A program made the position numbers and the translations under genes. From a virus, in the IMG/VR virus record IMGVR_UViG_3300029922_000031, positions 41,075 to 105,074 of that record: a stretch of DNA of 64,000 nucleotides, one strand, 5' to 3'. Under the pieces are notes generated by a model. The model ran no database searches, was not told where the DNA came from, and was given only the letters and a program-made list of their open reading frames with translations. Below are positions 1 to 54,064 of the stretch, one piece after another. Within the stretch, counting starts at the first letter, position 1, and the number at the start of each line of letters is the position of its first letter.

Positions 1-594
1 GACCGCAGCGCGATCTGTCTTGGAAAGTCCCATGAAATCAAAGACCATTGCCGCGGTTACACGCCCAACAGCGAAGACGGCAATGTCGCGGCCGCGGCCT
101 GACTGCGCGCGGGCCTGACTGTGCTGAACCGCGTCGAGAAGGAATTGCGGTGGCTTGTCGATCAGGTCGACGAACAACCGCGCCCGCGGCGAAAGCCGAT
201 TCATCACGAAGTCGCGGGTGTCGGCGCGTTCGAACGCCTCGATGCCGGATAGGCCAGCATCATCCTCGATCGCCTCGTGCAACCCGCCCGAATCTTCGGC
301 GGGCTCGTCACCCGGCATTATGTCGAGCGAAGTGCATTGACCGTTGTCGATCTGATCCTGCACCCATCGGTTGATGTGGTGATGCATTCCTCGGCTCAGA
401 AACGCCAGGAAGGGGACGCCGTATTCCTCGCTCCAGGCGTCCCGAGCCTTGCACCAGGCGATGCAGAGCTCCTGATAGATGTCCTGCGCCGTTAGGCTGG
501 CGGCGCCGGCCGCGTGAGCGCGTCGTAAAACGCGCCACGCGAAGCTCTTGATGGCCTTGTCGTGCTGCGGCGTGAAGGCAAGCTGGGTGTTCAT
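1..594 (-). CDS. Sigma-70-like RNA polymerase sigma factor (3' end outside window)
   Basis: An open frame of 198 codons runs off the left edge. The start ATG overlaps the stop of the CobS-like gene (TGATGA), so the two are probably cotranslated. Residues about 34-80 resemble sigma-70 region 2: a helix with DIYQELCIAWCKARDAW, then GVPFLAFLSRGMHHHINRW, which matches the usual core-binding and -10 recognition layout. The end of the visible part (TAAMVFDFMGLSKTDRAAV) could be a region 4-like helix-turn-helix. If active it would direct host RNA polymerase to phage promoters. Family assignment rests on pattern likeness only, and a general helix-turn-helix regulator is possible. The C-terminus cannot be judged here. 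Confidence 0.6.
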   Translation of the reverse strand, partial: MNTQLAFTPQHDKAIKSFAWRVLRRAHAAGAASLTAQDIYQELCIAWCKARDAWSEEYGVPFLAFLSRGMHHHINRWVQDQIDNGQCTSLDIMPGDEPAEDSGGLHEAIEDDAGLSGIEAFERADTRDFVMNRLSPRARLFVDLIDKPPQFLLDAVQHSQARAQSGRGRDIAVFAVGRVTAAMVFDFMGLSKTDRAAV

Positions 595-1754
595 CACACG
601 CCGCCAAAGACACGTTGAGCGAAGCCGTCGGCGGTCTCTTTATCGACGCGCGAGAGACGCGCAGCCCAGGCGGCGATCAGACCCGCCCGCCAGGCGCCAC
701 CCTTCATCACCGCGAAGCGCGCGGCGTTGATCAGCTCGCGCGGCGAGATCGTCGAGCCCAACCGGGCGGCCTTGAACGCCTCGCGAATGCTGTTGGCGAA
801 CTCGACGAGCTTGTCGGCGTCCTTTTTGTCGATGTTCGCCTGACCGGCGATCACCATCGACTCGACCTTCGGCTCCATGTAACCGATCTCGATCGTGACG
901 CCGAAGCGCGAGAAGTTCGCGCCGTCCTGCATCTGGGTGCCCTGATAGAGACCCGTCTCGTCGCCGCAACCGTTCGTGTTGCCGGTCGCGACGAAGCGGA
1001 AGTTTGGGTGCGGCCGGATCACGCGCTGCGCCGGCGGAGCCTCTTTGATGTAGAGAGCCTTGCCTTCGAGAACCGGCTGATAGACCGAGAGAACGGGCGC
1101 GGTGCCGCGGTCATACTCGTCGGCGCAGTAGACGAAGCCTTCGAGCATCGCGACGGCCAGCGGACCGAGTTCGAACTTGGTCTCGCCTTCCTTGACGACA
1201 TATTGCCCGATGATATGCGATTCCTCGGTGTTGACGGTGTGCTGGACGCGCATGAAGGGGCGCTTCGTGCGCGCCGCGATCTGCTCGAGAAGCGTGGTCT
1301 TGCCGGTGCCGTGATAGCCCCAGACGTAGAGCGGGGCCTTAAGCTCCTGTGCAATCAGGATTGACTTAAGGTTCTCGATGTCAAAAACGTAGTTCTGGTC
1401 CACGTCGGGCACGAGCTGTTCGGCTTCCGGCGTCAGCTCGGACATGACCGGGATCATGATCGGCTGGCCGCGCGCGTTCATCGCCGCCTTGACCTCGCCG
1501 AGAGCGAAGATTTCGTGCATCGGCTGACGATCGCCGCCGACGACTTTGGCCTGCTCCTTCTGAGCCTGCTTGACGCGGATCATGCTCTTGGCGGCCTCGG
1601 AAAGGATGGGCTCGCCGGGGTATTCGCGCTGGTAGCGGGCAATGTCCCAGCCAGGATGATTCTCGCGAAGGTAAACTTGGATGGAGTGGCACAGTGCTCC
1701 GTCGAGCTTGCACTCGATTTTGCCGCCACCGATAGCGGGCGTCGTCTCCGTCAT
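594..1754 (-). CDS. cobS: CobS-like AAA+ ATPase (MoxR/CobS class)
   Basis: 386 residues. The P-loop GYHGTGKT is at about 146-153, Walker B with Asp212-Glu213 (YCADEYDRG), and a sensor segment RFVATGNTNGCGDETGLYQG at about 253-272. The last is characteristic of cobaltochelatase subunit CobS. In cobalamin synthesis CobS works with CobT and CobN to insert cobalt, but no CobN is seen here. The neighbour upstream in the same direction is a CobT-like vWA protein, so the pair resembles phage-borne MoxR-vWA chaperone pairs. A remodelling role is more likely than cobalt chelation (inference). The start has AAAGGAG a few bases upstream. A hairpin and an operator-like palindrome separate it from cobT. 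Confidence 0.85.
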   Translation of the reverse strand: MTETTPAIGGGKIECKLDGALCHSIQVYLRENHPGWDIARYQREYPGEPILSEAAKSMIRVKQAQKEQAKVVGGDRQPMHEIFALGEVKAAMNARGQPIMIPVMSELTPEAEQLVPDVDQNYVFDIENLKSILIAQELKAPLYVWGYHGTGKTTLLEQIAARTKRPFMRVQHTVNTEESHIIGQYVVKEGETKFELGPLAVAMLEGFVYCADEYDRGTAPVLSVYQPVLEGKALYIKEAPPAQRVIRPHPNFRFVATGNTNGCGDETGLYQGTQMQDGANFSRFGVTIEIGYMEPKVESMVIAGQANIDKKDADKLVEFANSIREAFKAARLGSTISPRELINAARFAVMKGGAWRAGLIAAWAARLSRVDKETADGFAQRVFGGV

Positions 1755-1785
1755 GATCGTCTCCTTTGTCGCTGCGTCGCTGCAA

Positions 1786-1810
1786 ACGATGCGCTGTTAT
1801 CGCGCATCGT
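1786..1810 (-). terminator. Hairpin between cobT-like and cobS-like genes
   Basis: A perfect 9-bp stem (ACGATGCGC with GCGCATCGT) and a 7-nt loop, followed on the minus strand by TTTG. The short T-run makes it a weak intrinsic terminator or attenuator. It lies just downstream of the palindrome at 1824-1837. Confidence 0.5.
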
Positions 1811-1823
1811 GTCTTGGTTCACA

Positions 1824-1837
1824 AGTCAATTCTGACT
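1824..1837. promoter_or_regulatory. Dispersed palindromic operator, site 1
   Basis: AGTCAATTCTGACT, one of the repeated 14-bp palindromes. It starts a few bases after the stop of the cobT-like gene and precedes the hairpin at 1786-1810 in the direction of transcription. Confidence 0.6.
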
Positions 1838-1841
1838 GGCG

Positions 1842-4220
1842 TCAAGCGGCAAGTAGAATCCGCTTGAGCTCCTTCATAATCGTCGAGGGGAGCTCCTCGA
1901 TCCGCTTAAGAACAACATGCTTCGGGTAATAGTGCCGAACCGAGTCATCCATGATCCCGATACCGATCACCTCGATGCCGCGCTTTGTCGACTCCTCGAT
2001 GACCTGATGGAGATGCGAATTTAGCGCAGCCTCTGGCCTTTCACCGCTACGATAGGTGTAGTGGGCGGCGGCCGAGGGCGACCCGTCGGACAGAACGATC
2101 AGCACCTTGCGCTTCTCCTTGCGCCTCATAAGACGAGTCGCCGCGACCTCGATGCACTCGCCATCGACGTTGTTGCGCAGGAAGTTCTGATGCTCGGCGG
2201 CGACCGCGAACCGCTGCTTGACCGCCGGCGTCAGACGCTCGTTGAAGTCCTTGTAGATTGGCATGTAGATCGGCTCGATGCGGCCGTATTGCTTGCCGAT
2301 GCGAGCCTCCTCGGCCGTGATCAGATCGTCCAGCGTGCGGTTCGCGGGAAGCGTCGTGAAGCCGAGCACCTCATGCGCGATCTTCACCCGTTCCAGCGTC
2401 TGCGAGAGGGCGTAGGCCGCCTGCATCGCCGTCGTCATCTTCTTCCCGCCCATCGAGCCGGAGTTGTCGACCACCAGTCCGACCGCTGTGTCCTTCGACG
2501 TGTTCTCGTGGAGACGGCGGAAGACCCGATCGTCGCCGACGAGCAACTTGTGCAGGCTCGCCGCGTGCAGCCGACCCGACCGGAAGCCGGGCAGCTTGAG
2601 CACGTTCGAGCGGGACGCCATGAGCCGCTCAATGTCCTTTTGCATCGGCCCAATCATGTGCCGCGTCGAGCTGTCAAAAGACTCAAACTCCTCGTCCGTG
2701 ACTTTACCCGTGATGACCGAGACGTCGTCGTAGTCCTTGGTGAAGACGCGATATTCGGCGCCGCGCGTCATCCGGGTCGCAAGATCGGTGATCTCGCCGA
2801 CGATCGCGTCCTTGAATTTGTCGCCGTCGACCTCGATCTCCATGTCGGAGAACGCCGACGAACCCATGCCTGGATCCTTGCTTTCGCCGGACTCCTCTAG
2901 TTCGTCGCTGGGCTCTCCGCCGGCGGAACCTTCTCCAGCTTCTCCGCCGGACCCTTCGTCGCCTGCGTCGCTGTCGTCAGACTCAGACCCAGCGCCTGCG
3001 CTGCCATCGTCAGACTCCTCATCCTCTCCGCCGTCACTGGCAGACGTTCCGACTTCGCCGTCGTCGCCGTCTTCATCCCGCTCTCGATCGGCGGGCTCTC
3101 CGTGATCGTTGTCCCGTTCTCCATCGTCACCGTCGGCGTCATCCTCTGACTCCTCGGGGTCGACAGCTCCGTCACCGTCTCCGTCGCTCCCATCAGCATC
3201 ACCAGCACCTTCGCTGGGGAGTTCCGAATCATCGCTCTCTGACTCACTCGAGCCAGAAGTCTCTTCATCCTCGGATTCATCTTCGCCTTTCTCGCCCTCG
3301 CCGGGCTTCTCGGTCTCTTTCGGTCCGTCAGCTTCCTCGCCGGCATCCTCCTCGGACGACTCGCCCTTGTCTTCGCTGGGCTTCTCGTCATCGCCAGTCG
3401 ATGCTGACTTATCCTTTTCGGCAGACTTTTCGCCGCCGGCACCCTCGTCTTCCTCGTCCTCGGGCTTGTCCTTGTTCGCGCCCTTGCCGTCGCTCTTGGT
3501 CTTCTCGGTCGAGTCCGACTTGGACGGCTCGGTCGGGGAGCCAGGCGGCGGAGCGGGCGGGGCAGGGGGCGGCGGCGGGCAGAGAACGCTGTGATAGACC
3601 TCTGCGATCGCGAAGGCGTCGCGGGTGTTCTTCATGCCCGTCATGCGAGCGCGAATGTCTTTCGGCAGCCCGTCGAGCAGCGACTTGACAAGCGGATGCT
3701 CCCAGTAGCCCTTGCCCGTCATCCAGTCATTGAACACCTTCTGGCCGCAAAGCGCGCGCGCCATCACGACGATGATCGCCTCGAACTCCTTCTTCGGATC
3801 GCCCTTGGCTTCCGCGATGTGCGGCTCGGTGATCTTCTTGAGGAAGAACTCGTGCAGTCGGCCGAGATTGTAGTGCGAGCCGGGGAACTTGTCGGCCATC
3901 CGCTTCTCGATCAGCGGATCTTCGAGCATGTTCCACAGGCCGTGCAGCTTCGCGCTCGCCCTGCGCTCCTTCATCTTGTAGGTGAACTCGGTGAAGAGGA
4001 TGTGCGCAACCTCGTGGTCGATGAAGCCCTGGATCGCCATGAGCAACTCGGCCGTCGCAGTGTCGGGGATTTGCGGGATGTTGACCCGGATCGGCTTCCC
4101 GGCCTTGTCGTTCTCCACATACGCAGAAGCGCCTCGCTGAGTGACGACCAGCCCCTTGCCTGCAAGGAGCTGGGTCACTTTGACGATGACCTCGCGCATT
4201 AGCGCAATATCTTGATTCAT
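1842..4220 (-). CDS. cobT: CobT-like protein: metallopeptidase-like N-terminus, acidic linker, vWA domain
   Basis: 792 residues. A zinc-site motif HEVAH is at 69-73, followed by WNMLED around residues 96-101, as in CobT-type HExxH...ED domains. A very acidic Ser/Asp/Glu/Gly-rich stretch spans roughly residues 225-470. A C-terminal von Willebrand A domain has the MIDAS motif DNSGSMGG near 587-594 and a later LSDGSPS. This is the CobT plan; with the adjacent CobS-like ATPase it forms a two-component AAA+/vWA machine. No CobN-like subunit is visible, so the substrate is unknown. The start has AGAGGA upstream. The acidic linker produces long spurious opposite-strand frames, which I ignored. Confidence 0.85.
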   Translation of the reverse strand: MNQDIALMREVIVKVTQLLAGKGLVVTQRGASAYVENDKAGKPIRVNIPQIPDTATAELLMAIQGFIDHEVAHILFTEFTYKMKERRASAKLHGLWNMLEDPLIEKRMADKFPGSHYNLGRLHEFFLKKITEPHIAEAKGDPKKEFEAIIVVMARALCGQKVFNDWMTGKGYWEHPLVKSLLDGLPKDIRARMTGMKNTRDAFAIAEVYHSVLCPPPPPAPPAPPPGSPTEPSKSDSTEKTKSDGKGANKDKPEDEEDEGAGGEKSAEKDKSASTGDDEKPSEDKGESSEEDAGEEADGPKETEKPGEGEKGEDESEDEETSGSSESESDDSELPSEGAGDADGSDGDGDGAVDPEESEDDADGDDGERDNDHGEPADRERDEDGDDGEVGTSASDGGEDEESDDGSAGAGSESDDSDAGDEGSGGEAGEGSAGGEPSDELEESGESKDPGMGSSAFSDMEIEVDGDKFKDAIVGEITDLATRMTRGAEYRVFTKDYDDVSVITGKVTDEEFESFDSSTRHMIGPMQKDIERLMASRSNVLKLPGFRSGRLHAASLHKLLVGDDRVFRRLHENTSKDTAVGLVVDNSGSMGGKKMTTAMQAAYALSQTLERVKIAHEVLGFTTLPANRTLDDLITAEEARIGKQYGRIEPIYMPIYKDFNERLTPAVKQRFAVAAEHQNFLRNNVDGECIEVAATRLMRRKEKRKVLIVLSDGSPSAAAHYTYRSGERPEAALNSHLHQVIEESTKRGIEVIGIGIMDDSVRHYYPKHVVLKRIEELPSTIMKELKRILLAA

Positions 4221-4839: not shown

Positions 4840-5283
4840 TCACTTTTTCAGCATGTTCTTCGGCAACATGTTCAGAAACACAGCCATCGCGGCCATTGTT
4901 TCCACCGTCTGCTTCGGGTCGAGATTGCCGGTCGCCGCGCGCCACGGCTTCAGAAGAATCTCCTCCTCATTCGGCGTCGCGATGCGACCAAACACCGTCT
5001 CGATCGCTTCGCCCAGATTCGGCCAATATTGCTGAAGCGCCAGACGAAATAGGTGGGTAGGGTCGACGTGCAGCGCCTTGGCGAGCGCTGGAATTTTGTC
5101 AAGCGGGACTTTCGCTTCACCACGCTTGAACATGGAGATAATATTCGGCTTGTCGTAGCCGGCTTCGAGGGCAATTTCACGTTGAGTCTTCACGCCCTTA
5201 AGAGCATCGATCTGTTTATCCAAGTATTTCGCAACCATCGTGCCCGCGAATGGCATTCCGGCTTTCACTTCTGAGACGGACAT
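4840..5283 (-). CDS. XRE/Cro-CI family transcriptional regulator (candidate phage repressor)
   Basis: 147 residues. A helix-turn-helix of the Cro/CI type covers about residues 33-75: TQREIALEAGYDKPNIISMF is the core, followed by the usual third helix (LDKIPALAKALHVDPTHLF). The C-terminal 70 residues are helical and may dimerise. No LexA-like autocleavage serine/lysine pair is seen, so it is not a lambda CI-type RecA-cleavable repressor. Its own upstream region (5284-5400) carries two ATCATTGAATGAT-like elements and a GCTATATC -10, which suggests autoregulation. It is the only clear Cro/CI-type protein in the window and so the best candidate to bind the dispersed palindromes (inference). Confidence 0.8.
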   Translation of the reverse strand: MSVSEVKAGMPFAGTMVAKYLDKQIDALKGVKTQREIALEAGYDKPNIISMFKRGEAKVPLDKIPALAKALHVDPTHLFRLALQQYWPNLGEAIETVFGRIATPNEEEILLKPWRAATGNLDPKQTVETMAAMAVFLNMLPKNMLKK

Positions 5284-5412: not shown

Positions 5413-5643
5413 GTGGGAACTGCTCGGGTTCGCTTGGAATATCAATCACCATTTACTGAGAGTCAATCGTCGCTTATGGCAGTTTGCGATGCCCACGAGA
5501 ATCTCAGGTCGTTTTGTTCCATAATCTATATTATGCGAATCAGAAATGTTAATTACTTGGCGGGCGAATCCGCCTTCTCCGAATCGCACGACTCAGACAG
5601 AGTACCCTTGTTTATCAACGGGGTGATTCTGCCCATGAGCTAA
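5413..5643 (+). CDS. Doubtful small ORF upstream of the antisense RNA
   Basis: A 76-codon GTG-start frame ending just before the hairpin at 5656-5691. It has no recognised domain, no clear ribosome-binding site and lower GC than its neighbours. The same stretch holds a perfect hairpin (AGCAGTTC/GAACTGCT, 5405-5424) and CATAATCTATATTATG. On the minus strand it holds a TTGACT-N17-GATATT promoter. The region may therefore be regulatory rather than coding. Confidence 0.2.
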   Translation: MGTARVRLEYQSPFTESQSSLMAVCDAHENLRSFCSIIYIMRIRNVNYLAGESAFSESHDSDRVPLFINGVILPMS

Positions 5644-5654
5644 TCGGACAAAGC

Positions 5655-5691
5655 AAAAGCCCCGCCAGGGTTGCCGCCCTGGCAGGGCTTT
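5655..5691 (-). terminator. Intrinsic terminator of the antisense RNA
   Basis: A 15-bp stem with one mismatch (AAAGCCC-GCCAGGG against CCCTGGC-GGGCTTT) and a 6-nt loop, followed on the minus strand by TTTTGCTTT. The plus-strand tail is only TTT, so it acts mainly on minus-strand transcripts. Confidence 0.75.
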
Positions 5692-5736
5692 GGGTCTCCA
5701 AGATGGGTCCGCGCTAAAGGGACCGACCAAATCGCA
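5655..5736 (-). ncRNA. Candidate antisense (counter-transcribed) RNA controlling repC
   Basis: On the strand opposite repC, a TTGACA -35 box (5767-5772) is followed after 17-18 bp by CTAGAA/TAGAAG (5743-5749). An RNA starting near 5736 would end about 80 nt later at a strong hairpin with a TTTTGCTTT tail (5655-5691). An antisense RNA of this size, immediately upstream of repC and with its own intrinsic terminator, is the known inc element of repABC plasmids. The repC leader also carries alternative pairings: GGTCC (5706-5710) with GGACC (5720-5724), or CGCGCTA (5710-5716) with TAGCGCG (5747-5753). That fits RNA-controlled occlusion of repC expression. Confidence 0.65.
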
Positions 5737-5819
5737 ATTCCCCTTCTAGCGCGCGGCTGATTCGGTTGTCAACAGTCTTCTGGCTGGTGAGCGCCCGAGC
5801 TTTGTCCAAAGGAGGACAA

Positions 5820-6971
5820 ATGCTTCAGACCGGCATTCGCCGCTTGAGCCCTGGCGCTCTAGCGGTCAGGGAGATTCGCGCTCAAAAGACCGAAGGTGTC
5901 AACCGCAGGGCGCTGCTCGCCGCGGCGCGCGACGCCAGCCAGGCTCTCGACCTTCGCAGCTCCGTGCGGCAGGTTCTTGGTGAGCTTGCCGCCTGCTATG
6001 GCGAACAGGAGCTCCAGCGCGGGCTCATGGTCTGGCCCTCGAACGAGTATCTCTGCCGCAAGACGGGCTTGGCCGAGCGCACGATCCGTAAGTGCATTCG
6101 AGCCTTGATCGACGCCGAGCTGATCGAGCCGGTCGACAGCGCCAATCGCAAGCGCTTCGCCGTGCGCGGGCCTGGCGGGATCATTCGCGACGCCTACGGC
6201 TTCAATCTTGAGCCTATCTACGCCCGGCGCGCTGAGTTCGCCGGCGTGATCCTCGAGCACCAGCTTGCAGCCGCTCGTCGATCGGCGTTGTTCGACGAAC
6301 TGACCATCCAGCGCAAGGGCGCCGAGGAAGCCCTGAGAGCGCTCAGGGCGAGCTTCCCCGCGGTCGAGTGCCACGAGCACGAAACGGCGATGATCGCGCT
6401 CCTGGCCACCCTGCCCCGCCGCTCAGGTAGGAGTGCGCCGGATGCTGCCGTGGCGGCGTGGTTGAATCTGAGAACCGCCTTGGAGAACCTGTTCTTCGAA
6501 GCCTCTCGAAATCAAAAAGAGTCCGGCAGAGCCGGCGATCCGTGCCGTCACAAAGAGCCAGACAAAAATTTCTCTATCGAGCTTTGCCAGAGGCAGCCGG
6601 AAGGCTGCGACCCGGTTCGTCAAAACGAACAGCCAGCATTGGATCTGATCGTTGAAGCCTGCCCAGCGGCTGCGGCCTATTCCCGGCCTATCTCAAATGA
6701 AGATGACCTGATCCGGATCGGCCGGGAACTTCGGGGTTCGCTTGGAGCGTCAGCCGAGGCGTGGGTCGAAGCGACGGAAGGGATTGGATTACGGCGCGCG
6801 GCCGCGCTGGTGCTCTATGTTCTCCAGCTCGCCGACGATGATCAGAACTCGGGCGAGCAGAAGATCAGAAAGCCCGGCGGGCTGTTCCGTCACCTGGCGC
6901 GCAAGCTCGCCGAGGATCAGATGGACTTTAACGCCGAGCTGATGGCTTTGCGCCGGCGACACCTGGCGTAG
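5820..6971 (+). CDS. repC: RepC replication initiator (repABC plasmid type)
   Basis: 383 residues from the ATG preceded by a strong AAAGGAGG site; an in-frame upstream start at 5766 lacks one. The winged-helix segment WPSNEYLCRKTGLAERTIRK and the following DAYGFNLEPIYARRAEF are hallmarks of RepC, the initiator of repABC plasmids in Alphaproteobacteria. The C-terminal KPGGLFRHLARK also matches the family. RepC proteins bind an origin inside their own gene; a relatively AT-rich stretch lies at about 6500-6600. Unlike plasmid operons, repA and repB are not adjacent, but the antisense RNA region upstream is kept. This implies replication as a plasmid during lysogeny. Its strand is opposite to its neighbours. 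Confidence 0.88.
   Translation: MLQTGIRRLSPGALAVREIRAQKTEGVNRRALLAAARDASQALDLRSSVRQVLGELAACYGEQELQRGLMVWPSNEYLCRKTGLAERTIRKCIRALIDAELIEPVDSANRKRFAVRGPGGIIRDAYGFNLEPIYARRAEFAGVILEHQLAAARRSALFDELTIQRKGAEEALRALRASFPAVECHEHETAMIALLATLPRRSGRSAPDAAVAAWLNLRTALENLFFEASRNQKESGRAGDPCRHKEPDKNFSIELCQRQPEGCDPVRQNEQPALDLIVEACPAAAAYSRPISNEDDLIRIGRELRGSLGASAEAWVEATEGIGLRRAAALVLYVLQLADDDQNSGEQKIRKPGGLFRHLARKLAEDQMDFNAELMALRRRHLA
6500..6600. other. Possible oriV inside repC
   Basis: Within repC, a stretch relatively rich in A and T (for example AAATCAAAAAGAG and ACAAAAATTTCTCTAT) interrupts otherwise GC-rich codons. In repABC plasmids the origin lies in an AT-rich part of repC. Assignment here is by analogy only. 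Confidence 0.3.
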
Positions 6972-7204: not shown

Positions 7205-8734
7205 CTACTCCGCGGCAACGGCGAGCGCCGGGTCTTTGTCGTCGCGGAATCGGATGAAGCGCGGGTGGCGCAGCGAGCCATCAGGGGTGACTTCATGGAA
7301 CTCGACCTCGATCAGCCGGCCGATGATCTCGCAGCCTAGCGCCTGATATTCGAATGGCTGAATGTCGTCGTGACCCAGCAACCGCACCTGGTCGGCCTTG
7401 TATAGCCGCCAGAACTCCTCACGCTGCGCGTCAGAGAAACCGCCACCGACGCGAACGCTGACGCCCTTGCGATCGACGATCAGCCCGCCGAGCTTGCCGA
7501 CGTACTTGCCCTCGCCCTCGAAGGCGTCGATCACCCGAAGATCCTCAGTCTCCTCATTTTTCATCTTGAGCCAGGAGCGCGACCGCTTCTTCTGATAGGT
7601 GCCGTCGAGCGGCTTGACGATGGCTCCTTCGAGCATCTTGTAGCCGCCAGTGACAGGATCGGGCGTGACCGCGAGCAGCTCCTTCTCGAGCTCCTCGTCG
7701 CCGCGCGCCAGATAGGAGGCGAGTGTCGTCGTCCGATATTCCTCGAAGATCGAATCGATCTCCTCGTGCGAGTGAGCCAGCCGACGCGGCACCAAGCGAA
7801 TCCAGTTGCCGGCCGGGGCGAACTGAACCAGCCAGATCAGGAAGGCACGGCGCAGGTCGTGCTTCATATTGAACTCGCCGAGGTTCCGAGCGGTCATGAA
7901 CGCAAACGGCACGGCGTCGAAGACGTGATAGATCATCTCCGTCGCTTCGACGCTCTTGCGACGCACGGCGCCGGAGCTCTCGCCGAACAGGCCACTGAGC
8001 GCCTCGCCCTCCAGAGCAATCGACGCGCCGGCGTCGCCGCCCAGTATCGCGTAATACAATTTTGCCAGCGGATGAGGGGGCGCTAGTGGCGGGGGCACTG
8101 CGTCGGCAGCGTGCTTCGCCGTCCAGTGAGCCTTCTTGACCATCTCCGCGACGTGGACGCCTAGACCGTCGAGCGCCGGGAAGTGATTGCCGACGCGGCT
8201 GAAGAACTTGCCAGTGCCATCTTTCACCAGACAGGGCGCCCGCAGGCCGTCGAGCTTGGGCTCCATCGCCACCGGGAAGGTCTTGATGCGCTTCGGCTCG
8301 TATTTGTGGCTCAGCATGACCTCGAAGGTCGGAATCAGGCCGGGCTTCAACTTGTTGACCGTCTTGGCCGTGACGCCGCAGCGGAGATCCTTCGACAAAA
8401 TCCGCCAGAGCAGCTCCGAGCTGGTTGCATCCAGCATGTTCATGAGATCCAGAACGTTCTCCTGCGCCAGGTTGCCGGTCATGATGCGAGCCGCGAGACC
8501 GCGAATCGTCGCCCAGACCAGGACGTTGCTCGCGTCGAAGCGCTTCGTGCCAATCGACTCGACGTGCGGCGGCGTGATGCCGAACGTAATGAACGGATCG
8601 CAGGCGTATTTGAGAACCTCGATCATGAAGGGATCGCCGATCGTGCCGTTCAGGATTCGCTCCTTCTCGACGCGCGATGAGGTCTTGTCGATGGCCCAGA
8701 ACGTCTCCATCACGTCGTAAGCAGTCATTCCCAT
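7205..8734 (-). CDS. ATP-dependent DNA ligase
   Basis: 509 residues from the ATG that follows GAAAGGAAA; an upstream in-frame start lacks a ribosome-binding site and would overlap the preceding gene. The nucleotidyl-transferase motif EPKLDGLRA (lysine near residue 163) is the adenylation site. Later motifs include EGAIVKPLDGTY and SWLKMKN, which correspond to ligase motifs IV and V. The N-terminal 150 residues are the helical DNA-binding part typical of viral ligases. It joins nicks during phage replication and belongs to the replication operon with primase and helicase. It is the last gene before the terminator. Confidence 0.9.
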   Translation of the reverse strand: MGMTAYDVMETFWAIDKTSSRVEKERILNGTIGDPFMIEVLKYACDPFITFGITPPHVESIGTKRFDASNVLVWATIRGLAARIMTGNLAQENVLDLMNMLDATSSELLWRILSKDLRCGVTAKTVNKLKPGLIPTFEVMLSHKYEPKRIKTFPVAMEPKLDGLRAPCLVKDGTGKFFSRVGNHFPALDGLGVHVAEMVKKAHWTAKHAADAVPPPLAPPHPLAKLYYAILGGDAGASIALEGEALSGLFGESSGAVRRKSVEATEMIYHVFDAVPFAFMTARNLGEFNMKHDLRRAFLIWLVQFAPAGNWIRLVPRRLAHSHEEIDSIFEEYRTTTLASYLARGDEELEKELLAVTPDPVTGGYKMLEGAIVKPLDGTYQKKRSRSWLKMKNEETEDLRVIDAFEGEGKYVGKLGGLIVDRKGVSVRVGGGFSDAQREEFWRLYKADQVRLLGHDDIQPFEYQALGCEIIGRLIEVEFHEVTPDGSLRHPRFIRFRDDKDPALAVAAE

Positions 8735-8750
8735 CAGATGTTTCCTTTCG

Positions 8751-9353
8751 TTATGTAGAAGCTTTGATGGCCGCATTAAGCGCGGCAGTCAGATCACCCG
8801 TTGCGGCCGCGCTCGGCGTTTCTGCGGCGGGCTCCGCCGGAGGCGGTGACGAAAAGATGCCGCGTGAAATCTTCTTGCCTTGCTTGGCTTCCGGCGGGTA
8901 CTCGGGAATTTCGCGATAGCCAATGTCTTCGAGAGTAGCGATCTCGAGACCCTTGAATTTATCGAAGCCCTTGAGCCCGTTGCAGGCGCGAATGCGATCG
9001 AGATGTTGCGGCAGAATACCGGGGTAGTTCGTTATCGTCGTCTCCGGGACGACGATGGGCGCGATCGCTCGCAGCACCTTATCGGAAAGACGGCCGAGCT
9101 TCGGCGTAGTCGAGAAATAGGGATCGACGCCGGCGTCCGGGTCGAGCTCCTTAAACACAGCGCCCATCGGGCACTTGGAGGCGGACATGCACGCCTGACA
9201 GCCCTTGCGAACCTCTGGCCCCTGCCCTCGCCAGACCATATCGCGAAGCTTGTTACACTCGCGCATTTCGACCTCGGCCCCGAAGATCGGGCAGACGAAG
9301 CGAAAGCGATTCTCGGCGCTGAGCGACTTGCAGGGCGTCATTGATATCGTCAT
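8751..9353 (-). CDS. Unknown cysteine-rich protein in the replication operon
   Basis: 200 residues. I do not recognise the family. Cysteines at 21, 33, 52, 55 and 61 (CQAC, then SKCP) could form a zinc or iron-sulphur site. The C-terminal 40 residues are Ala/Pro-rich and probably disordered. The start overlaps the stop of the upstream gene (TGATG), so it is translationally coupled. The position between two unknown proteins and ligase suggests a part in DNA metabolism, by context only. Confidence 0.65.
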   Translation of the reverse strand: MTISMTPCKSLSAENRFRFVCPIFGAEVEMRECNKLRDMVWRGQGPEVRKGCQACMSASKCPMGAVFKELDPDAGVDPYFSTTPKLGRLSDKVLRAIAPIVVPETTITNYPGILPQHLDRIRACNGLKGFDKFKGLEIATLEDIGYREIPEYPPEAKQGKKISRGIFSSPPPAEPAAETPSAAATGDLTAALNAAIKAST

Positions 9354-26943: not shown

Positions 26944-29900
26944 TCACGCATTGAAGTAGATCGCCCCGCCATCGAGATCGATGATCATTTTCCCGTCAGT
27001 GCTCTGGATAGTGCCGGCGGTCACAGCGCCAATATCGGCGCTGATCGCCGAGAGCGTGGTGACGTCAAGCTGCGCCGCGGTGATCGAGTTGGCGGCGATT
27101 TGGGTGGCCGTGATGGTGCCGGCGGCGATTTGGGTGGCCGTGATGCTGCCGGCGGCGATCAAAGCCGCGGTGATCGAGTTTGCGGCGATCTGAGTAGCCG
27201 TGATCGTTCCCGCCGTTAGGCGATCGGCGGTGATCGCGCCCGCCTGAATCTGGGTAGCGGTGATCGTGCCAGCGGCGATCTGATCGGCCGTGATCGAAGC
27301 AGCGGCGATCTGCGCGGCCTTGATTGAGCCGGTGACGATGTTCGAGCCGTCGACAACGGTCTGACCATAGCTGACGATCATTCCCGCCAGGGGAGTATAG
27401 CTGGCGAAATTGATCACGTCGGCGCTAGAGCTCGCGGCGATGTCGTTCGAGAGTGTCGTCGCGTCCTTCTCCCACCAGACGTAGATGGGAGTGCCAGTGT
27501 AGGTCAGAGAGCCCGCAGCCACCGTGACGGTTACGTTGTCGCCGGCGTCGTCGAGATATTGGATTGTACCGGCCGTCCAGGAGAAGACGCTCGTCCCGAT
27601 GTTGAAGGCGAAAGTGAAGCCGGTGATCGTGACGCCGCGCAGGCCGATGGTCAGTAGGTTAGCCGCAATGGTGTTGGCTGCAATCGAGCCGCCGTCGATC
27701 TTGGTCGCGTCTGAACCGTTCTGCCAGGAGGCGAGCGTTGTCGAACCGTCGATCTCGATTAGACCGGCGGCGATCTGGGTGGTGTTATTGTAGTTGATCA
27801 GGGCGGCTGGATCGCCAATCTCAACGCCTGTCGTGCCGATGGTGATCGTCGGCGGGAGTGAGGTCGTAATGTTGAGAAGATCGCCCGTAATTGAACCGGC
27901 GACGAGTCGATCGGCGGTGATCGAGCCCGCGACAATGTCACCGTTGGCGACTGCGCCAGGCGTGACAGAGACGGGGCCTGCGTAAGCACCCGCGACGCCC
28001 GACGTGTTGACAGCGCGCACCCAATAATAGAGCTCTACGCCCGTCGTGAGCCCCGCCTGAGTGAATGCAGTCCCGTAAGACGTGCCGGCCAGCACTGCTG
28101 CGCCGAGCACACCGGTCGTGCCGAACCAAATCTCGAGATGATCGAGGTCGGCGTCGCTCGGATTGACCCACTGAAGATAGACGCTCTTGAGCGATGCGGC
28201 GACGGCGAGCTCAGTGATAGCGCCCGGACCGGTCGTCTTCGCCGGCATGGCGATCGAGATGCTGGCGCAGAATGCCGACGCATACGCCGTCTGCGACCAA
28301 GCTCGGACCTTGACCGTGTATGTGTGGCCGGAGACCAGGTTCGGCCAGGAGAAGATGTCGAGCGAGGTCTGATAGCTGATGAAGGAGCCGGCGCCGTCCT
28401 GAATCTCGACGTCGAAATAGGCGAAGTTGCTCGAGGGCGAAGCGTCCCAGGTCGCGGTCAGAACCTGTTGAACCTCACCCGTCGTCAGAGTGAGGTTGCT
28501 GGTAGATAGCGCAAGGCTGGTTGGAATATCTGGCGGGGTGACGTTGGGCGTGTAGCCGCCCACTGTCACAGCGAAGGGCGGCGAAATGTTCAGGTTATCG
28601 GTGCCGAACTGATCGTAGCCGGCGATGCGGATATAATAGGTCGTTCCGAGATCGCCGGGGATCGCGACCAGATTGTTTGACCCCTGATAGACCGGCGTCG
28701 TCGCAAGGGGATCGAAGTTCTGATCGGTCGAAGCCCAGACAAAGGAGCCGACGAAGTCTGCATCCGACGGGTTGACATAGGTGACATACATCGCCTGCGC
28801 GCCAGACGTGACGGTCGGGAAGATGACATCGGGGACCGGATTGTCGACCGCAAGCGTCACCGCCGGGGACTGACGACCAAGAGTATCTTGGACCACGACG
28901 CTGACCGAGAACGCACGCTGCGGCCCGCGGTTGAAGGCGACATTGTCGGCGGTGTTCTTATCAAAGGTGTAGACGTAGTCGCTGGTGTAGACGGTCTCGG
29001 TGCGCAGCACCGTGCCGGTGGTGGCGTCAAGGATTGAGACGCTGTTGCAGAGAAAGAAGGGGTTGACGCTTCCTACGCCTGCGGTGCTCTGGCCAACATC
29101 GCTGGTCGAACCGGGGAAATTATTCTCCCAGGTGACGTGGCAGTCCTTGCCGCTGAAGTTGGCGCTGTTGCCAGAGTCGAAGACTTCCAACATGCTGACA
29201 TAGGGCGGCGGCGTCGCGGCCCAGCCCTGTACGTTGTAGTCTATGGAGACATCCGTCGAAACGCGGCCGTCAAAGCCGACCGATTGAATGTTGAAGGTCC
29301 ACTGACCAAGCTGAATGCCGTCGGCGTCAAGGCTCGAGACGTTGGTCTGACCGATCGTCGTCGTGCCGCCGATATTCGGGCTGATGCCAGTGACCAGATA
29401 GGACTGAGCGAGGAAGTCATCCGAGGGCGACCACGAGAACGTCAGACGATTGGCCGCAACGCCGTTCTGAAAATAGACGCTCTCCTGCACCTGAAAATTA
29501 GCAGGCGGGTTGATGGTCGACTGCGGGCGCGAATATTGGATCGTCGCGAGATTTAGATTACCCTCGACTCGATCGTACTTCGTCGGATCGTAGAAGAGCG
29601 CCGTGATCTTGAAGAGGTTCTTTTCAGTCTCGGCGATCGAAATAACGCGATATTGCCGCGGCGCGAGCTCGGTGCTGGTGATCACCCACATCGCGCCAAT
29701 GAGCGGCGCCTGCGCAAGAGCCGACTCGAGCGTGACCGTCTGATTGTCCGTACTGAAACTCGCGATCGTCTGCGAGCCGATCGTACCGTCCGGAAATTCA
29801 ACCATGAGCGCGTAGGTTTGACCCAAGACCGGAACGAACGGCTGATCTAAAGTCAATACTGACTGGCTCGTGATGACCTGAATACGCCCGCCAAGCCGCA

Positions 29901-31410
29901 CTTGAGCTTTGTTTGGGTCGGCGATCGCGATGACGTCGCCAGGCCGAACGTCGATATGATCCCAGGAAGCGGTATATTCGACGGTCTCGGTGGCGAATTG
30001 CTCGGTATCGAGCAGCCACTTTCCCATGCGGTTGGCCTGGCCACGGCTCGTGCAGCCAATCGCGGTCAGGTTCGTCTCGCGCCACCCATATTGAATGAGC
30101 TGCGGCTCGCTGACCACTACCTCGACGTCAGGCCCGTAGAACATGATCGGGTTGTTCCACCGGATCATTGCGACCGAATGCCGAGCCTTTAGAGCTGTGC
30201 CGCTGTAGTTGAAGTGCCCGTCGATGACGTTCGTCGGCGAGACCAGCTTAACGGGATCCATCGGCATATCGGCGATGGCGAAAACCTGGCCAATCGACCA
30301 GTAGGCCATGCCTCGGAAGCTCGACGTGATGTTCTGAAGAGCCTTGTAGGCTTCCTGGCGATTATTAAGCACACCATTGAAGGTGTAGCGCGGCTCCTGC
30401 CCGCCGTAGCCGTCAGAGACCAACTGATCGCAATATTGGGCGATCGAATAGAGCGACCACTTGTCAACTTTGGTGGCGTCGATGAACTCGCCGATACCGT
30501 AACGATCGTTCGTGAACAGGTCGTAGAGCACCCACGCCGGGTTGTTGGAATAGGCCATTTGGAATGTGCCATCCCAAACGCCGGTGTAGACTCGAGTTGT
30601 CGGATTATAGTTGCTCGGAACCTGAATGATCAGGCCCTGAATGTGAAACGACCGAGCTGGGATTGCGCTTGCGCTAAACAGCTCCGAATCGACGGTGAGA
30701 CCGACAACCGCCGAGTTCGGGTAGATGAAGTTGCCGGCGACGATCGTCGTGTAGGAATCCCACCACGTTTCGTTCTGCAAACGAACGTTATCGGAGTCTT
30801 TGGTGATCCGCCGAACGCGCAAATTGCAGGGCGTGCTGCCCGGTGGGATGTCGAAGACGCTCTGGTGCTGATAGGCGCTGGTGCATTTCTGATTGTTAAG
30901 GTTGACGGTGGCGGCGAGCGTCCAGTAGCCGCCATTAGGCTGAATTTCGACGACCCACGAAACACTGGTTGGATTTATGTTGCCACTGCTGTCCGTCGAC
31001 GTGAGCGCCGGCACGCGAACAATCACCTGAGCGGAAGTGACGTCCGGGTCGACAATCGTCACCGCCGAAGGCGAGATGTTTTCCTGAACTTGAATGCCGA
31101 CCGCGATGACGTTCTCCGCGGTCGAATTGCCGGGCAGGGCCGGCTGGTCGGGCAATCCCACGCGGCTTTCCCACTGCACACCGCGAAAGTTCACGGTGCC
31201 ATTGGCATTCACCACCGGCGTTTGGTTGAAATAGATCGAGGTCCCGCCGTTGACGAGACCCGCGATCTGACCCTCGCCGATCAGCTCGACGATGCGTGCA
31301 AAGGCGGCCGAGCGAAGCGTATTGTCCGCCTCGACGCCTTGCCCGCCGCCTTTGATAAAGCCGCTGAGAGAGGAGGTCTTTGAGCCCCGAATGGGAAGAG
31401 GAAAATCCAT
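26944..31410 (-). CDS. J: Central tail hub/host-specificity protein (lambda gpJ-like)
   Basis: 1488 residues. The N-terminus (LPIRGSKTSSLSGFIKGGGQ, then a long hub region to about residue 650) matches gpJ-type proteins. Fibronectin type III-like domains follow to about 1170. The C-terminus has a repetitive helical region (GSITADQIAAGTITATQIQA and variants, about 1395-1460), which forms the trimeric stalk in related phages. It binds the receptor and plugs the tail tube. Its start overlaps the gpI-like stop (TAATG). An operator-like palindrome lies inside at 29851-29864. Confidence 0.9.
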   Translation of the reverse strand: MDFPLPIRGSKTSSLSGFIKGGGQGVEADNTLRSAAFARIVELIGEGQIAGLVNGGTSIYFNQTPVVNANGTVNFRGVQWESRVGLPDQPALPGNSTAENVIAVGIQVQENISPSAVTIVDPDVTSAQVIVRVPALTSTDSSGNINPTSVSWVVEIQPNGGYWTLAATVNLNNQKCTSAYQHQSVFDIPPGSTPCNLRVRRITKDSDNVRLQNETWWDSYTTIVAGNFIYPNSAVVGLTVDSELFSASAIPARSFHIQGLIIQVPSNYNPTTRVYTGVWDGTFQMAYSNNPAWVLYDLFTNDRYGIGEFIDATKVDKWSLYSIAQYCDQLVSDGYGGQEPRYTFNGVLNNRQEAYKALQNITSSFRGMAYWSIGQVFAIADMPMDPVKLVSPTNVIDGHFNYSGTALKARHSVAMIRWNNPIMFYGPDVEVVVSEPQLIQYGWRETNLTAIGCTSRGQANRMGKWLLDTEQFATETVEYTASWDHIDVRPGDVIAIADPNKAQVRLGGRIQVITSQSVLTLDQPFVPVLGQTYALMVEFPDGTIGSQTIASFSTDNQTVTLESALAQAPLIGAMWVITSTELAPRQYRVISIAETEKNLFKITALFYDPTKYDRVEGNLNLATIQYSRPQSTINPPANFQVQESVYFQNGVAANRLTFSWSPSDDFLAQSYLVTGISPNIGGTTTIGQTNVSSLDADGIQLGQWTFNIQSVGFDGRVSTDVSIDYNVQGWAATPPPYVSMLEVFDSGNSANFSGKDCHVTWENNFPGSTSDVGQSTAGVGSVNPFFLCNSVSILDATTGTVLRTETVYTSDYVYTFDKNTADNVAFNRGPQRAFSVSVVVQDTLGRQSPAVTLAVDNPVPDVIFPTVTSGAQAMYVTYVNPSDADFVGSFVWASTDQNFDPLATTPVYQGSNNLVAIPGDLGTTYYIRIAGYDQFGTDNLNISPPFAVTVGGYTPNVTPPDIPTSLALSTSNLTLTTGEVQQVLTATWDASPSSNFAYFDVEIQDGAGSFISYQTSLDIFSWPNLVSGHTYTVKVRAWSQTAYASAFCASISIAMPAKTTGPGAITELAVAASLKSVYLQWVNPSDADLDHLEIWFGTTGVLGAAVLAGTSYGTAFTQAGLTTGVELYYWVRAVNTSGVAGAYAGPVSVTPGAVANGDIVAGSITADRLVAGSITGDLLNITTSLPPTITIGTTGVEIGDPAALINYNNTTQIAAGLIEIDGSTTLASWQNGSDATKIDGGSIAANTIAANLLTIGLRGVTITGFTFAFNIGTSVFSWTAGTIQYLDDAGDNVTVTVAAGSLTYTGTPIYVWWEKDATTLSNDIAASSSADVINFASYTPLAGMIVSYGQTVVDGSNIVTGSIKAAQIAAASITADQIAAGTITATQIQAGAITADRLTAGTITATQIAANSITAALIAAGSITATQIAAGTITATQIAANSITAAQLDVTTLSAISADIGAVTAGTIQSTDGKMIIDLDGGAIYFNA
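29851..29864. promoter_or_regulatory. Operator-like palindrome inside the gpJ-like gene
   Basis: AGTCAATACTGACT, one mismatch from a perfect palindrome, falls in coding sequence within a 4.5-kb gene. If bound it would act as an internal roadblock. Confidence 0.45.
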
Positions 31411-43463: not shown

Positions 43464-44366
43464 TTAAACGTTGGTGATGCCCGCGAGACGCGCCAGCGAC
43501 AGCGTGCTCTTGAGAGCCGTGCCGACGTACCACTTCATGCGGTAGCGGACGGCGTCCTTGTTCTGGATGGTGCCGATGTTCTCCACTTGGATGCCGGCGG
43601 ACGGGCCGCCGAAGATCGCATGAAAGCCGTCGGCTTCATTCAGGCGGATCGCGTAGATCGAGGTCGTGGCGCTATTCGTGCCGCACGTCTCGTTGTTCGG
43701 GACGTAGTCGTTCAGCAGCACCGGGGTGCCGTCGAACGAGTGGACCGGACGACCGAAGTTCTCGATCATCATTTCTTCGGCATGGTTGCCGTTGAACGAA
43801 CGAAGGAGAGCGCGAACCGCGCGCCAGGTCGAACGGCGCATGACAAGCGCGTCGGCGCCGAGCTTGACGAGTTCCTTGAGCTCGTCGAGCATCGCCAGCG
43901 TCATGGCGGCGCCGTTGGTGTCGGCCAGAATCACCTGCGAGGGGTCGCAGAGCGACGCCAAGCCGTCAAACGACTTCGCGTTGACGCTCGAGGAGCCCTG
44001 AACCAGAGCCCGACGGAAGGCGCGGCCAAGACCCTTCGCCTTCGAAGCGAGCTGGATCGCAAGCTGCGAGTTGTGATCCGACTGGGTGGCCAGCAGGAAT
44101 TTGTCCATGTCGACGTCGCCGGCCATGATCTTCAGCGTGGTCGTGACTTCGGTGAAGGTCGCGCCGCCTTCGTTCACGGGATCGTAGGGCGACAGGAAGT
44201 CGGCCTCGGTCAGCGTGTTTTCGCGGTTGTAGACATACGCCTTACCGTCGACGTACATGAAGGGGACGAGAGCGAACAGTTCGTCCTTGTCGATGATTTC
44301 CTCAATGACGCCGCGCTCGAGCTGTTCGAGCGAGAGTTTGGCGGCTTCGGCAACAAGCAAAGGCAT
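43464..44366 (-). CDS. Major capsid protein (HK97-fold type)
   Basis: 300 residues after CAGGAGC. The N-terminal helix (LSLEQLERGVIEEIIDKDEL), FMYVDGKAYVYNRENTL and the C-terminal VRYRMKWYVGTALKS, SLARLAGI are typical of HK97-fold coat proteins of the gp5-like or DUF2184-like group. No long cleaved delta domain is present; a separate scaffold gene lies upstream. Its own TTGACA/TATCAT promoter and terminator support very high expression. Confidence 0.85.
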   Translation of the reverse strand: MPLLVAEAAKLSLEQLERGVIEEIIDKDELFALVPFMYVDGKAYVYNRENTLTEADFLSPYDPVNEGGATFTEVTTTLKIMAGDVDMDKFLLATQSDHNSQLAIQLASKAKGLGRAFRRALVQGSSSVNAKSFDGLASLCDPSQVILADTNGAAMTLAMLDELKELVKLGADALVMRRSTWRAVRALLRSFNGNHAEEMMIENFGRPVHSFDGTPVLLNDYVPNNETCGTNSATTSIYAIRLNEADGFHAIFGGPSAGIQVENIGTIQNKDAVRYRMKWYVGTALKSTLSLARLAGITNV

Positions 44367-47325: not shown

Positions 47326-49113
47326 TCAACGGGAAACGCCCGCGATCTCGATCTTGCGAACGGGATACTCGAGATCGATGCAATAGCCGACCGCGTCCGC
47401 GGCGTGTTCGATGTTCATCGTCTTGTCGACCTCACGGGTGCCGGGCTTGTAGATGACCTGCTCGAAAGCCGTGATTGTGTGCTTGCAGCCCTGGTCAACC
47501 CGCATCCGGATCGTGCCGTCGGCCGTCTTGAACATACGGTTGGTGGCGTTGATACGATCGGAGACCTTGGGAGACTTGCGGCGGTATTTCAGCCGAATGA
47601 AGCCGGCATCGCGCATGATGTCGAGATCCGATTCGCCGCGAGCATGACCGCGCTGCTGGCCCGCCGGGTCAGGATAGATCGTGGTCTGCTTGAGGTGACG
47701 GAAGAACTTCTCGCCCAGCTTATCTGAGGCTTCCTGGGTGTTCGAACCGAATAGCACGACCTCATCGACGATCCAAACCTCGCCGTTGAGTTGAGGCTGC
47801 ATGATGATCGAGGTCATCGGGTCGATGTTGAAGTCCTGCCCTATCCAGATCGGTAGCTTCGGGTTGAATAGATAGTTGCCGACGTGGAGCTTGCGGTCGA
47901 AGGCGTGATAGACGCGACCGGACATTGTCTCGAAGGAGTTGAAGTTGTTGGCGCCGCTCGCCAAAACGTAACTGTGGTCATGACTATCCACGAGCATGTT
48001 CATGACCGAAACAGGCTCTGCTCTAAAAGATCGATTAACGACCTCGAGGCTGAGAAGACCGAGTTCTGGCAGCCAACGCTCTTTCAGCCATTCTGAAAAG
48101 TGCGGAAAAGAATGACCCGCGGTTGAACTTCGACCAGCGTCGATATCCCTCAATAGGCGATGCGCCGCGCCGCGCGTCAGCCCAATCGCGGCGCCGATCT
48201 TTTCATAGGGGTAGCCATCGGCACGCATGTCGAGCGCCGTCTCACGTCGAAACTCGGCCTTAACCCGATATGCCTTTAGATATTTCGACCATTGCCAGCC
48301 GAGAAGCTCCTTCGCATCGCAATAGGCGAAGCCAATCTTATCGAAGAAGACGACGATGCCGGCTGTGCCGTCGTTCACCCGCAACCAATACGTCTTGTAG
48401 TCGTCGCCAGTCGCCGAGACCGACATCGTCACCCCAAGATCGAGCGCCATCGTCTGAAGTTGGTCGAAAAACGCCTGACCATCGAAGCCGGCCGCCTTGC
48501 ACATGTTAAGAGCTGGTAGTCGCGGCATTCGAGACTTACCGCTAATGTCGTGCGCCGGCGCTGTCCCTTCCGCGCCGAATAAAGCGGCAAGATAGGCACG
48601 CTTCACCGCAACGTCGCCATTGATGATCCAGTCCGGCACTAGAAAACTCTGTCGAACCTTAGCGCCGATCGGCACGCCAAAGTCGGCGAGATAGCGACAG
48701 TCGCTCTCGCCGAGCTGAATCTGATAGCCGTCTTTCAAATGCGCCGCAGATGTCTTCTTTGAACAAACCGTGACGCCGTCACAAAGACCAAGCGATTGAA
48801 GATCGCTCAAAATCGCCTTTAGATCATCTCGCTCATTGCTGTAGAATGCACCCTGCATTCTAGGGTAGAGCGAAATTGAGCCATCTCGCTTTGTGTATTT
48901 AGAATGAGAAAGCACGATCGTGCCGTCGCCGGTCATATAACCAACAAGCGCAGCAAGCTTCTCGTCGCCGGTGCGCGGCGCGTAGAGTGTAGGCGAAATC
49001 TCGATACGCTCAATCTCATCAAGCGCGATCTTATGAGGCGTCAGCACGGTGAACCTTGAATTTATGATGTGCGCTGGCTGAGATGATCTCGCCAGTCTCC
49101 AGTATAACGTCAC
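47326..49113 (-). CDS. TerL C-extein plus intein C-terminal part (second frame)
   Basis: This frame opens at a GTG with no ribosome-binding site and overlaps the end of the first terL frame. It contains the intein endonuclease with LAGLIDADG motifs LAALVGYMTGDG and AYLAALFGAEG, a helix-turn-helix-like segment (YEKIGAAIGLTRGAAHRLL), and splicing block F (MLVDSHDHSYVLASG) ending in NNFN before Ser. From 47937 down it is the TerL nuclease domain: SFETMSGRVYHAFDRK, IGQDFNIDP, TIYPDPAGQQRGH. It lacks its own N-terminal ATPase and should be read with the frame at 49031-49990. Confidence 0.8.
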   Translation of the reverse strand: MTLYWRLARSSQPAHIINSRFTVLTPHKIALDEIERIEISPTLYAPRTGDEKLAALVGYMTGDGTIVLSHSKYTKRDGSISLYPRMQGAFYSNERDDLKAILSDLQSLGLCDGVTVCSKKTSAAHLKDGYQIQLGESDCRYLADFGVPIGAKVRQSFLVPDWIINGDVAVKRAYLAALFGAEGTAPAHDISGKSRMPRLPALNMCKAAGFDGQAFFDQLQTMALDLGVTMSVSATGDDYKTYWLRVNDGTAGIVVFFDKIGFAYCDAKELLGWQWSKYLKAYRVKAEFRRETALDMRADGYPYEKIGAAIGLTRGAAHRLLRDIDAGRSSTAGHSFPHFSEWLKERWLPELGLLSLEVVNRSFRAEPVSVMNMLVDSHDHSYVLASGANNFNSFETMSGRVYHAFDRKLHVGNYLFNPKLPIWIGQDFNIDPMTSIIMQPQLNGEVWIVDEVVLFGSNTQEASDKLGEKFFRHLKQTTIYPDPAGQQRGHARGESDLDIMRDAGFIRLKYRRKSPKVSDRINATNRMFKTADGTIRMRVDQGCKHTITAFEQVIYKPGTREVDKTMNIEHAADAVGYCIDLEYPVRKIEIAGVSR

Positions 49114-49270
49114 AAATTATTTTGCGCCCCGTTTCACCGATACGCAATACGCTTGTTGGAATTCTTTCGCCGTCGGGTGTAATATGGATTAGTTCGTCAC
49201 CAAAACGAATATCCCGAATAGCCTTAACTTCACCATTCCACATGCGAACTTGCGTCTCAAGCAGATGACA
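47938..49270 (-). mobile_element. LAGLIDADG intein in terL, frame broken by one base
   Basis: The intein runs from Cys (codon 49268-49270, CHLLETQVRMWNGEVKAIRD, block A) to Asn (47938-47940), with Ser as the first C-extein residue. Removing it joins FRQEFEA to SFETMSGRVY, the expected uninterrupted TerL sequence. Its 1333 nt equal 444 codons plus one base. The shift falls between block B (ISASAHHKFKV, about 49050) and TPHKIALDEIERI. Both endonuclease motifs and both splicing ends look intact. It may be a true frameshift, a recoding site, a trans-acting split arrangement or a sequencing error. Confidence 0.85.
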
Positions 49271-53386: not shown

Positions 53387-54064
53387 TTACTTCGCGGAAA
53401 TCTTGATCTCGTCGAAATAGGCCATCAGTGCGAGCGCACCGGTCTTGCCGGTGTCGACTTCGATCTGGGTCATGAACGCCTTGACGCGCCGGCTCTGCGC
53501 GATCGTGAATCGCTTGAAGCCGAACGCCTTGGCGAGCGGTGCGTCCTGCTCGTCGACCAGGGCCTGCTTATCGGCGTTGGTCGTCTTCTGATGTTCGACG
53601 GCGCTCGAAATATCGTCAATGAAGGCGCTTTCGTCGAGCTCGCCGATCTTGTCCTGAAGGAATGCCAGCTCTTGCTCATTGAAATTGAGCGAAAGCAGGT
53701 CGTAGCCGAGATCCTTGAGGTCGTAGATTTCGGTCTGAATCATCTGGGTGTCGTAGTCGGTCGAGGCAGCCCGGTTGTCGGCCAGGCGCAGGGCGCGCGT
53801 CTCGGCATCGGAGATGTCGAGCACCAGCGCCGGGACCTTCTTCAGGCCCATCTTGATCGCCGCCAGGCGTCGGCCATGGCCGGCGATGATTGAACCGGTC
53901 GTCTTCTGAATGACGATCGGCTGCGTCCAGCCAAACTGCTGGATCAGCTTGATCAGCCCGTCGATCTGCTCATCGGAGTGCTTCTTGGCGTTATTTTCGT
54001 ACGGAACGAGCTTGGCGACGTCCCAGAGTTCGATTGTGCCGTTGTCGGGAATCTTGGACGTCAT
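53387..54064 (-). CDS. ParB-like N-terminal domain protein 1
   Basis: 225 residues from the ATG of MTSKIPDN. IQQFGWTQPIVIQ followed by GSIIAGHGRRLAAIKMGLKKVP and LRLADNRAA is the ParB/Sulfiredoxin-type N-terminal domain (about 10-110). The C-terminal half is helical with no typical ParB helix-turn-helix, so it is unlikely to be the partition protein. Such proteins in phages often accompany DNA methylases or act as nucleases or CTPases; none is proven here. Confidence 0.8.
   Translation of the reverse strand: MTSKIPDNGTIELWDVAKLVPYENNAKKHSDEQIDGLIKLIQQFGWTQPIVIQKTTGSIIAGHGRRLAAIKMGLKKVPALVLDISDAETRALRLADNRAASTDYDTQMIQTEIYDLKDLGYDLLSLNFNEQELAFLQDKIGELDESAFIDDISSAVEHQKTTNADKQALVDEQDAPLAKAFGFKRFTIAQSRRVKAFMTQIEVDTGKTGALALMAYFDEIKISAK

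Follow-up and report, generated by a model that had tools for sequence, protein, structure and literature searches.

A plasmid-type RepC initiator with a predicted antisense RNA switch in a probable phage-plasmid of the RHEph10/pLM21S1 group

The 64,000-base stretch of DNA analysed here (the window) comprises bases 41,075 to 105,074 of a 105,074-base IMG/VR record (IMGVR_UViG_3300029922_000031), which is linear and without end repeats. It carries a replication initiator gene, repC, whose leader is predicted to be overlapped by an antisense RNA, within the following arrangement.

1842 to 4220, minus strand: CobT-like VWA protein, one edge of the cassette slot discussed below
4840 to 5283, minus strand: XRE/HTH regulator, divergent from repC, candidate prophage repressor (weak HTH_3 match; PHROG transcriptional regulators)
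5517 to 5539, no strand assigned: palindrome-like TTCCATAATctatATTATGCGAA, putative operator or promoter of the repC unit, with a near copy in the same place in L002
5646 to 5654, plus strand: 5' leader element GGACAAAGC, partner of 5799-5807
5650 to 5737, minus strand: antisense (ct) RNA of about 85 nt, predicted from comparative sequence, its 5' end estimated from the -10
5656 to 5691, minus strand: GC-rich intrinsic terminator of the antisense RNA (terminator scan, 15 pairs), followed by TGCTTTGTCC
5743 to 5749, minus strand: weak -10 region of the antisense promoter, CTAGAA or TAGAAG
5767 to 5772, minus strand: -35 element of the antisense promoter, TTGACA
5773 to 5786, plus strand: small leader hairpin CAGTC/GGCTG, with compensatory changes at five of seven pairs and just 58% of cells paired
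5799 to 5807, plus strand: 3' leader element GCTTTGTCC, common to both alternative stems
5801 to 5820, plus strand: hairpin TTTGTCC-AAAGGA-GGACAAA over the repC ribosome-binding site and start, the predicted off-state
5808 to 5815, plus strand: repC ribosome-binding site AAAGGAGG, a perfect one
5820 to 6971, plus strand: RepC replication initiator, 383 aa, ATG at 5820, stop at 6971 (Pfam RP-C 1.5e-39, RP-C_C 1.8e-14; phrog_22671 3.2e-39)
7205 to 8776, minus strand: ATP-dependent DNA ligase, the opposite edge of the slot

The first-pass annotation of this DNA had described a plasmid-type RepC initiator with a strong ribosome-binding site and with no repA or repB beside it, and all three points were borne out, by the RP-C and RP-C_C domains, by the AAAGGAGG site and by the gene layout, respectively. 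Its derivation of the protein from repABC replicons was not supported: in a 47-protein tree, phage RepCs and RepCs of plasmids mostly lacking repAB form a clade with 100/100 support, far from four canonical repABC RepCs, from which the window's protein is likewise set apart. Plasmid RepCs with no adjoining repAB lie inside this clade (L022, L113, L114, L115 and L118), as do two loci of repABC type (L011 and L021), and the window's RepC groups solely with that of L035 (75% identical). In protein searches it is just 34-37% identical to ten RHEph10-type Rhizobium phage records and closer, at about 42%, to the RepCs of the Methylobacterium plasmids pAMS5a and M. oryzae unnamed2. It shares its branch with plasmids that carry repC without repAB, the published "repC family" being the nearest match, in a tree built without the published proteins of that family (pRmeGR4a, pSmeLPU88b). 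Phage and plasmid labels interleave across the tree, where well supported branches require at least five changes between the two, a lower-confidence figure because the proteins sampled were similarity hits; RepC thus moves between phages and plasmids.

On the antisense side, the annotated TTGACA on the other strand and the intrinsic terminator were both recovered, the former at 5772-5767 with a weak -10, the latter by scan and by covariation. Owing to its -10, the antisense promoter went unlisted in a scan for consensus promoters, and the overall number of terminator-like sites is close to chance (three found against 2.0 expected), so that single-sequence evidence alone is modest; both leader strands fold better than 200 of 200 shuffles (z -4.0 and -4.6). 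A search baited with the adjacent ligase yielded 79 viral and 7 bacterial loci, of which about 40 have RepC tail to tail with the ligase; the comparative leader set comprises 39 sequences, a few from plasmids. TTGAC lies upstream of the terminator in 39 of 39, in phages and plasmids alike, and compensatory changes occur across these leaders at 13 of 13 terminator pairs, one or more at each. The strong evidence is thus comparative, and on these sequence grounds the antisense unit is judged to be real. Plasmids of the published repC family carry an antisense RNA ahead of repC, and experimentally shown ctRNAs occupy the same place in repABC and repC-family plasmids (PMC10194956).

Alternative stems in the leader, also claimed earlier, are confirmed in that 5799-5807 can pair either with 5646-5654 or with 5814-5820: a 9-bp helix (5646-5654/5799-5807) competes with the hairpin over the ribosome-binding site, and GG(A)CAAAGC, directly ahead of the terminator, has its complement in GCTTTG(T)CC, directly ahead of that site. 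The long-range helix covaries, with both-side changes at seven of eight pairs and an observed score reached by none of 500 shuffles, in a test that keeps the relatedness among sequences, related sequences being prone to inflate such tests. For each of the alternative stems, a leader's own pairing exceeds all 2000 of 2000 cross-pairings between leaders. Occupying 5656-5744 is predicted to lower the unpaired probability of 5814-5820 from about 0.45 in the free leader to 0-0.1. Canonical repABC loci arrange leader, antisense RNA and alternative stems in the same way, and the repABC copy-number control previously proposed for the window stands as regards this layout and not as regards family membership, since the cut-offs of Rfam ctRNA_p42d and S-element are missed: under a loose threshold ctRNA_p42d scores 16.4 bits on the window against a gathering score of 50, and S-element gives no match, whereas both families pass in the repABC controls L117 and L020. 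At the gathering threshold, Rfam returns nothing in the window beyond one tRNA. The predicted RNA would work like these families, yet is no member of them.

These elements suggest a mechanism in which RepC would initiate replication of a plasmid prophage, probably from an origin within repC by analogy with p42d, and a constitutive antisense RNA would set copy number. In free repC mRNA, 5799-5807 would pair with 5646-5654 and leave the ribosome-binding site open; with the antisense RNA on the leader, 5799-5807 would instead fold onto that site and the start codon, switching off RepC synthesis. The published p42d model has antisense pairing let the leader form an intrinsic terminator (PMC3155836). 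In the window the block would fall on translation rather than on transcription termination, because the hairpin has no U-run behind it on the plus strand. The RepC unit would derive from the plasmid lineage bearing repC without repAB.

Most leaders have a small gene, of 48-75 residues in annotated records, whose end lies just upstream of the antisense terminator; some records annotate it as ribbon-helix-helix (RHH) or CopG, and in pLM21S1 it matches RHH_1. It precedes the antisense RNA and repC in L006, L008, L009, L015 and about 30 others, is present in plasmids without repAB and absent from repABC loci, and in the leader census is missing from the window (5540-5655), L035, L034, L048, L037 and L070. 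Kept in most relatives, it has been lost in the window's sub-lineage. A frame at 5413-5643 was considered as the missing gene and rejected in the RHH gene census. Plasmids of the pMV158 type pair a transcriptional repressor with an antisense RNA, and by analogy the RHH protein is likely a transcriptional repressor acting alongside the antisense RNA. A 457-kb M. oryzae plasmid (L022, 3448-4984) carries an RHH-antisense-repC unit that is sister (100/99) to the unit at 15628-17138 of L008, a phage-plasmid of the same strain, H33R-06, which suggests a recent phage-plasmid exchange. A conjugative 318-kb Rhizobium plasmid (L113, 4502-5990) bears a RHEph10-type RHH-repC unit with no adjoining repAB.

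Elsewhere in the window lie structural and partition genes.

26944 to 31410, minus strand: lambda J-type tail/host specificity protein (phrog_1727 1.7e-266, phrog_31 4.2e-254)
43464 to 44366, minus strand: major head protein (phrog_212 5.2e-82), 61% identical to the pAMS5a major capsid protein
53387 to 54154, minus strand: ParB_N-domain protein, pAMS5a homologue annotated ParB/Srx
54262 to 54969, minus strand: second ParB_N-domain protein, pAMS5a homologue annotated ParB/RepB/Spo0J
57669 to 58319, plus strand: ParA-like partition ATPase, 216 aa, 52% identical to pAMS5a ParA
58316 to 58648, plus strand: small ParA partner, 110 aa, overlapping the parA stop, candidate centromere-binding protein

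The 105 kb are largely collinear with pAMS5a and in much also with RHEph10, the terminase, capsid, tail, ParB-like and ParA genes included, and the XRE regulator is 45% identical to its homologues in the same place in both. The terminase large subunit (47326-49990, minus strand) is split by an apparent intein (Cys first, Asn last and followed by Ser, weak LAGLIDADG match), an insert that may be disabled or a sequence error because its reading frame is broken. Cobalt chelation requires CobN; the CobS/CobT-like pair (594-4220, minus strand), retained throughout the lineage, is probably a MoxR/VWA-type module with a different role.

The same locus is present in six complete circular records, whose lengths run from 115.7 to 119.4 kb. 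Methylobacterium pAMS5a (117.7 kb) and M. oryzae unnamed2 (116.8 kb) have the window's gene order on both sides of repC (sigma, CobS, CobT, XRE, repC, ligase, WGR, primase, DnaB, PhoH, lysozyme, tail); the others are Sinorhizobium pLM21S1, R. beringeri pRlX6, Pararhizobium p5 and a Shinella plasmid. The earlier suggestion that the prophage is a plasmid is supported by these circular relatives of phage-genome size, the window's own record being a linear contig. The two observations on which that suggestion had drawn also stand. An integrase (PF00589) is absent from the 64-kb window and from the whole 105,074-base record, which is about 10 kb shorter than its relatives and may therefore lack a gene, and parA lies where it had been placed, at 57.7-58.6 kb, followed by a partner that matches its pAMS5a counterpart at 47% over 55 aa and belongs to phrog_6024, a family of unknown function. 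ParA and this partner may segregate the copies; parA is kept in 10 of 10 Rhizobium relatives, and a search for centromere repeats beside it gave just chance-like short pairs. The same ParA, 100% identical, occurs in two contigs of other metagenomes (L120, L121), so close kin of the phage are present in more than one sample. No integrase was found in any of 31 RepC-bearing virus or phage-plasmid records (the window's own, 13 relatives, 15 further virus records and two more; two are near-duplicates), against 7 of 14 RepC-less virus records, a difference with a hypergeometric p of about 1e-4 when calculated by hand, ignoring relatedness and incomplete contigs.

RepC-less relatives show what else may occupy its place, the interval between the ligase and XRE/CobT. 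This slot holds RPA (L050, L067), RepA_C (L028, L099), Rep3 (L032), ParA/ParB (L096-L098) or a tyrosine integrase (L079, L081, L089, L094 and L102, of which L089 and L102 end ahead of the XRE gene, and L067, beside RPA). That it is filled by plasmid initiators, ParAB or integrase speaks for a role in prophage maintenance, and the repC slot is a swappable maintenance cassette. In L064 (8285-9433) it contains a 382-aa protein without a Pfam or PHROG family, a candidate for an unknown initiator or recombinase. We lean towards a broader proposal, that the slot is an exchange hub for whole maintenance cassettes and that phages and ordinary plasmids repeatedly exchange the RepC-antisense unit. The nearest precedent is in cluster A mycobacteriophages, where integration cassettes are exchanged for parABS (PMC7157519); the exchange of integration and plasmid-maintenance cassettes at one locus is common to both, whereas the phages and initiators are unrelated and the slot described here accepts RepC, RPA, RepA_C, Rep3, ParAB and integrase.

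Three published groups offer further comparison. Members of the RHEph10/pLM21S1 group (RHEph10, pLM21S1, B1VFA, V1VFA-S, RHph_X66), of 115-122 kb, have ParA and no integrase, as does the window, and the two have in common the order dnaE-sigma-CobS-CobT-XRE-repC-ligase-WGR-primase-DnaB-PhoH-tail; the window carries RepC, the structural genes and this conserved order around repC, and differs in its divergent RepC and missing RHH gene. As in the repC family (pRmeGR4a, pSmeLPU88b; PMC10194956), repC stands without repA or repB and has an antisense RNA, predicted in the window, directly upstream, but it sits on a phage. With repABC plasmids such as p42d it shares the position and orientation of the antisense RNA, the 5'/3' leader pairing and the hairpin over the ribosome-binding site, whereas it has no repA-repB-repC operon and no parS, its RepC lies outside the canonical branch and its RNA, at a predicted 85 nt or so, is longer than the 55-59 nt of p42d. 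The window phage adds a new and divergent member to an already known group of tailed phage-plasmids of alphaproteobacteria. In the available text of the respective papers, pLM21S1 and RHEph10 are called archetypes of a plasmid-like prophage group (PMC4447125, PMC5537653) and pLM21S1 is given a RepC-type replication system without integrase (PMC4447125); for B1VFA and V1VFA-S the term used is phage-plasmid-like (PMC12509600). The capture of a solitary repC by a lambda-tailed phage, put forward in the first-pass annotation as noteworthy, is therefore not new, the group having been published in 2015, 2017 and 2025. Antisense RNA goes unmentioned in PMC12509600 and in the available text of PMC4447125 and PMC5537653.

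Taken as a whole, the explanation that the window represents the greater part of the genome of a temperate, lambda-tailed RHEph10/pLM21S1-group phage, with a low-copy circular plasmid as its prophage, is highly probable, although pLM21S1 is reported, in the available text of its description, to be uninduced by mitomycin C (PMC4447125), which counts against it. It is very unlikely that RepC instead serves lytic replication in a phage that is virulent or integrates by other means: the plaque-forming isolation of the RHEph10-type phages B1VFA and V1VFA-S (PMC12509600) and the phage's own primase, DnaB and DnaE homologues would suit such a role, but sequenced bacteria contain relatives as complete, phage-sized circular plasmids, the ten Rhizobium relatives keep parA, and the alternative contents of the slot point to prophage maintenance.

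The repABC-like arrangement of leader, antisense RNA and alternative stems might speak for recent capture of RepC and its inc RNA from a canonical repABC plasmid; the separate 100/100 clade, the Rfam families that pass in repABC controls and fail in the window, the absence of repAB beside repC and that of the repABC parS GTTNNNNGCNNNNAAC from all 105 kb make this very unlikely. Little probability also attaches to a bidirectional terminator or structured leader from which no regulatory RNA is made, a reading to which the weak -10 and the status of the antisense RNA as a prediction from sequence lend something, and against which stand the invariant TTGAC, comparably placed ahead of the terminator in phage and plasmid leaders, and the ctRNAs experimentally shown at that place in repABC and repC-family plasmids (PMC10194956).

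For the plasmid prophage favoured here, the phage type is already known, while neither the conservation of the RNA switch nor the exchange of whole maintenance cassettes among relatives appears to have been described before, and it is these two parts, the switch conserved in phages and the cassette slot, that are worth following. The 39 leaders of phages and plasmids make a comparative case for a repABC-like antisense switch conserved in a phage lineage, and the interchangeable plasmid and integration cassettes in one slot extend the mycobacteriophage pattern to alphaproteobacterial phages. Since RepC passes between phages and plasmids, incompatibility between prophage and resident plasmid is directly testable; if the RepC-antisense unit indeed moves between phages and ordinary plasmids, phage-plasmids and plasmids of one cell could share copy control and incompatibility.
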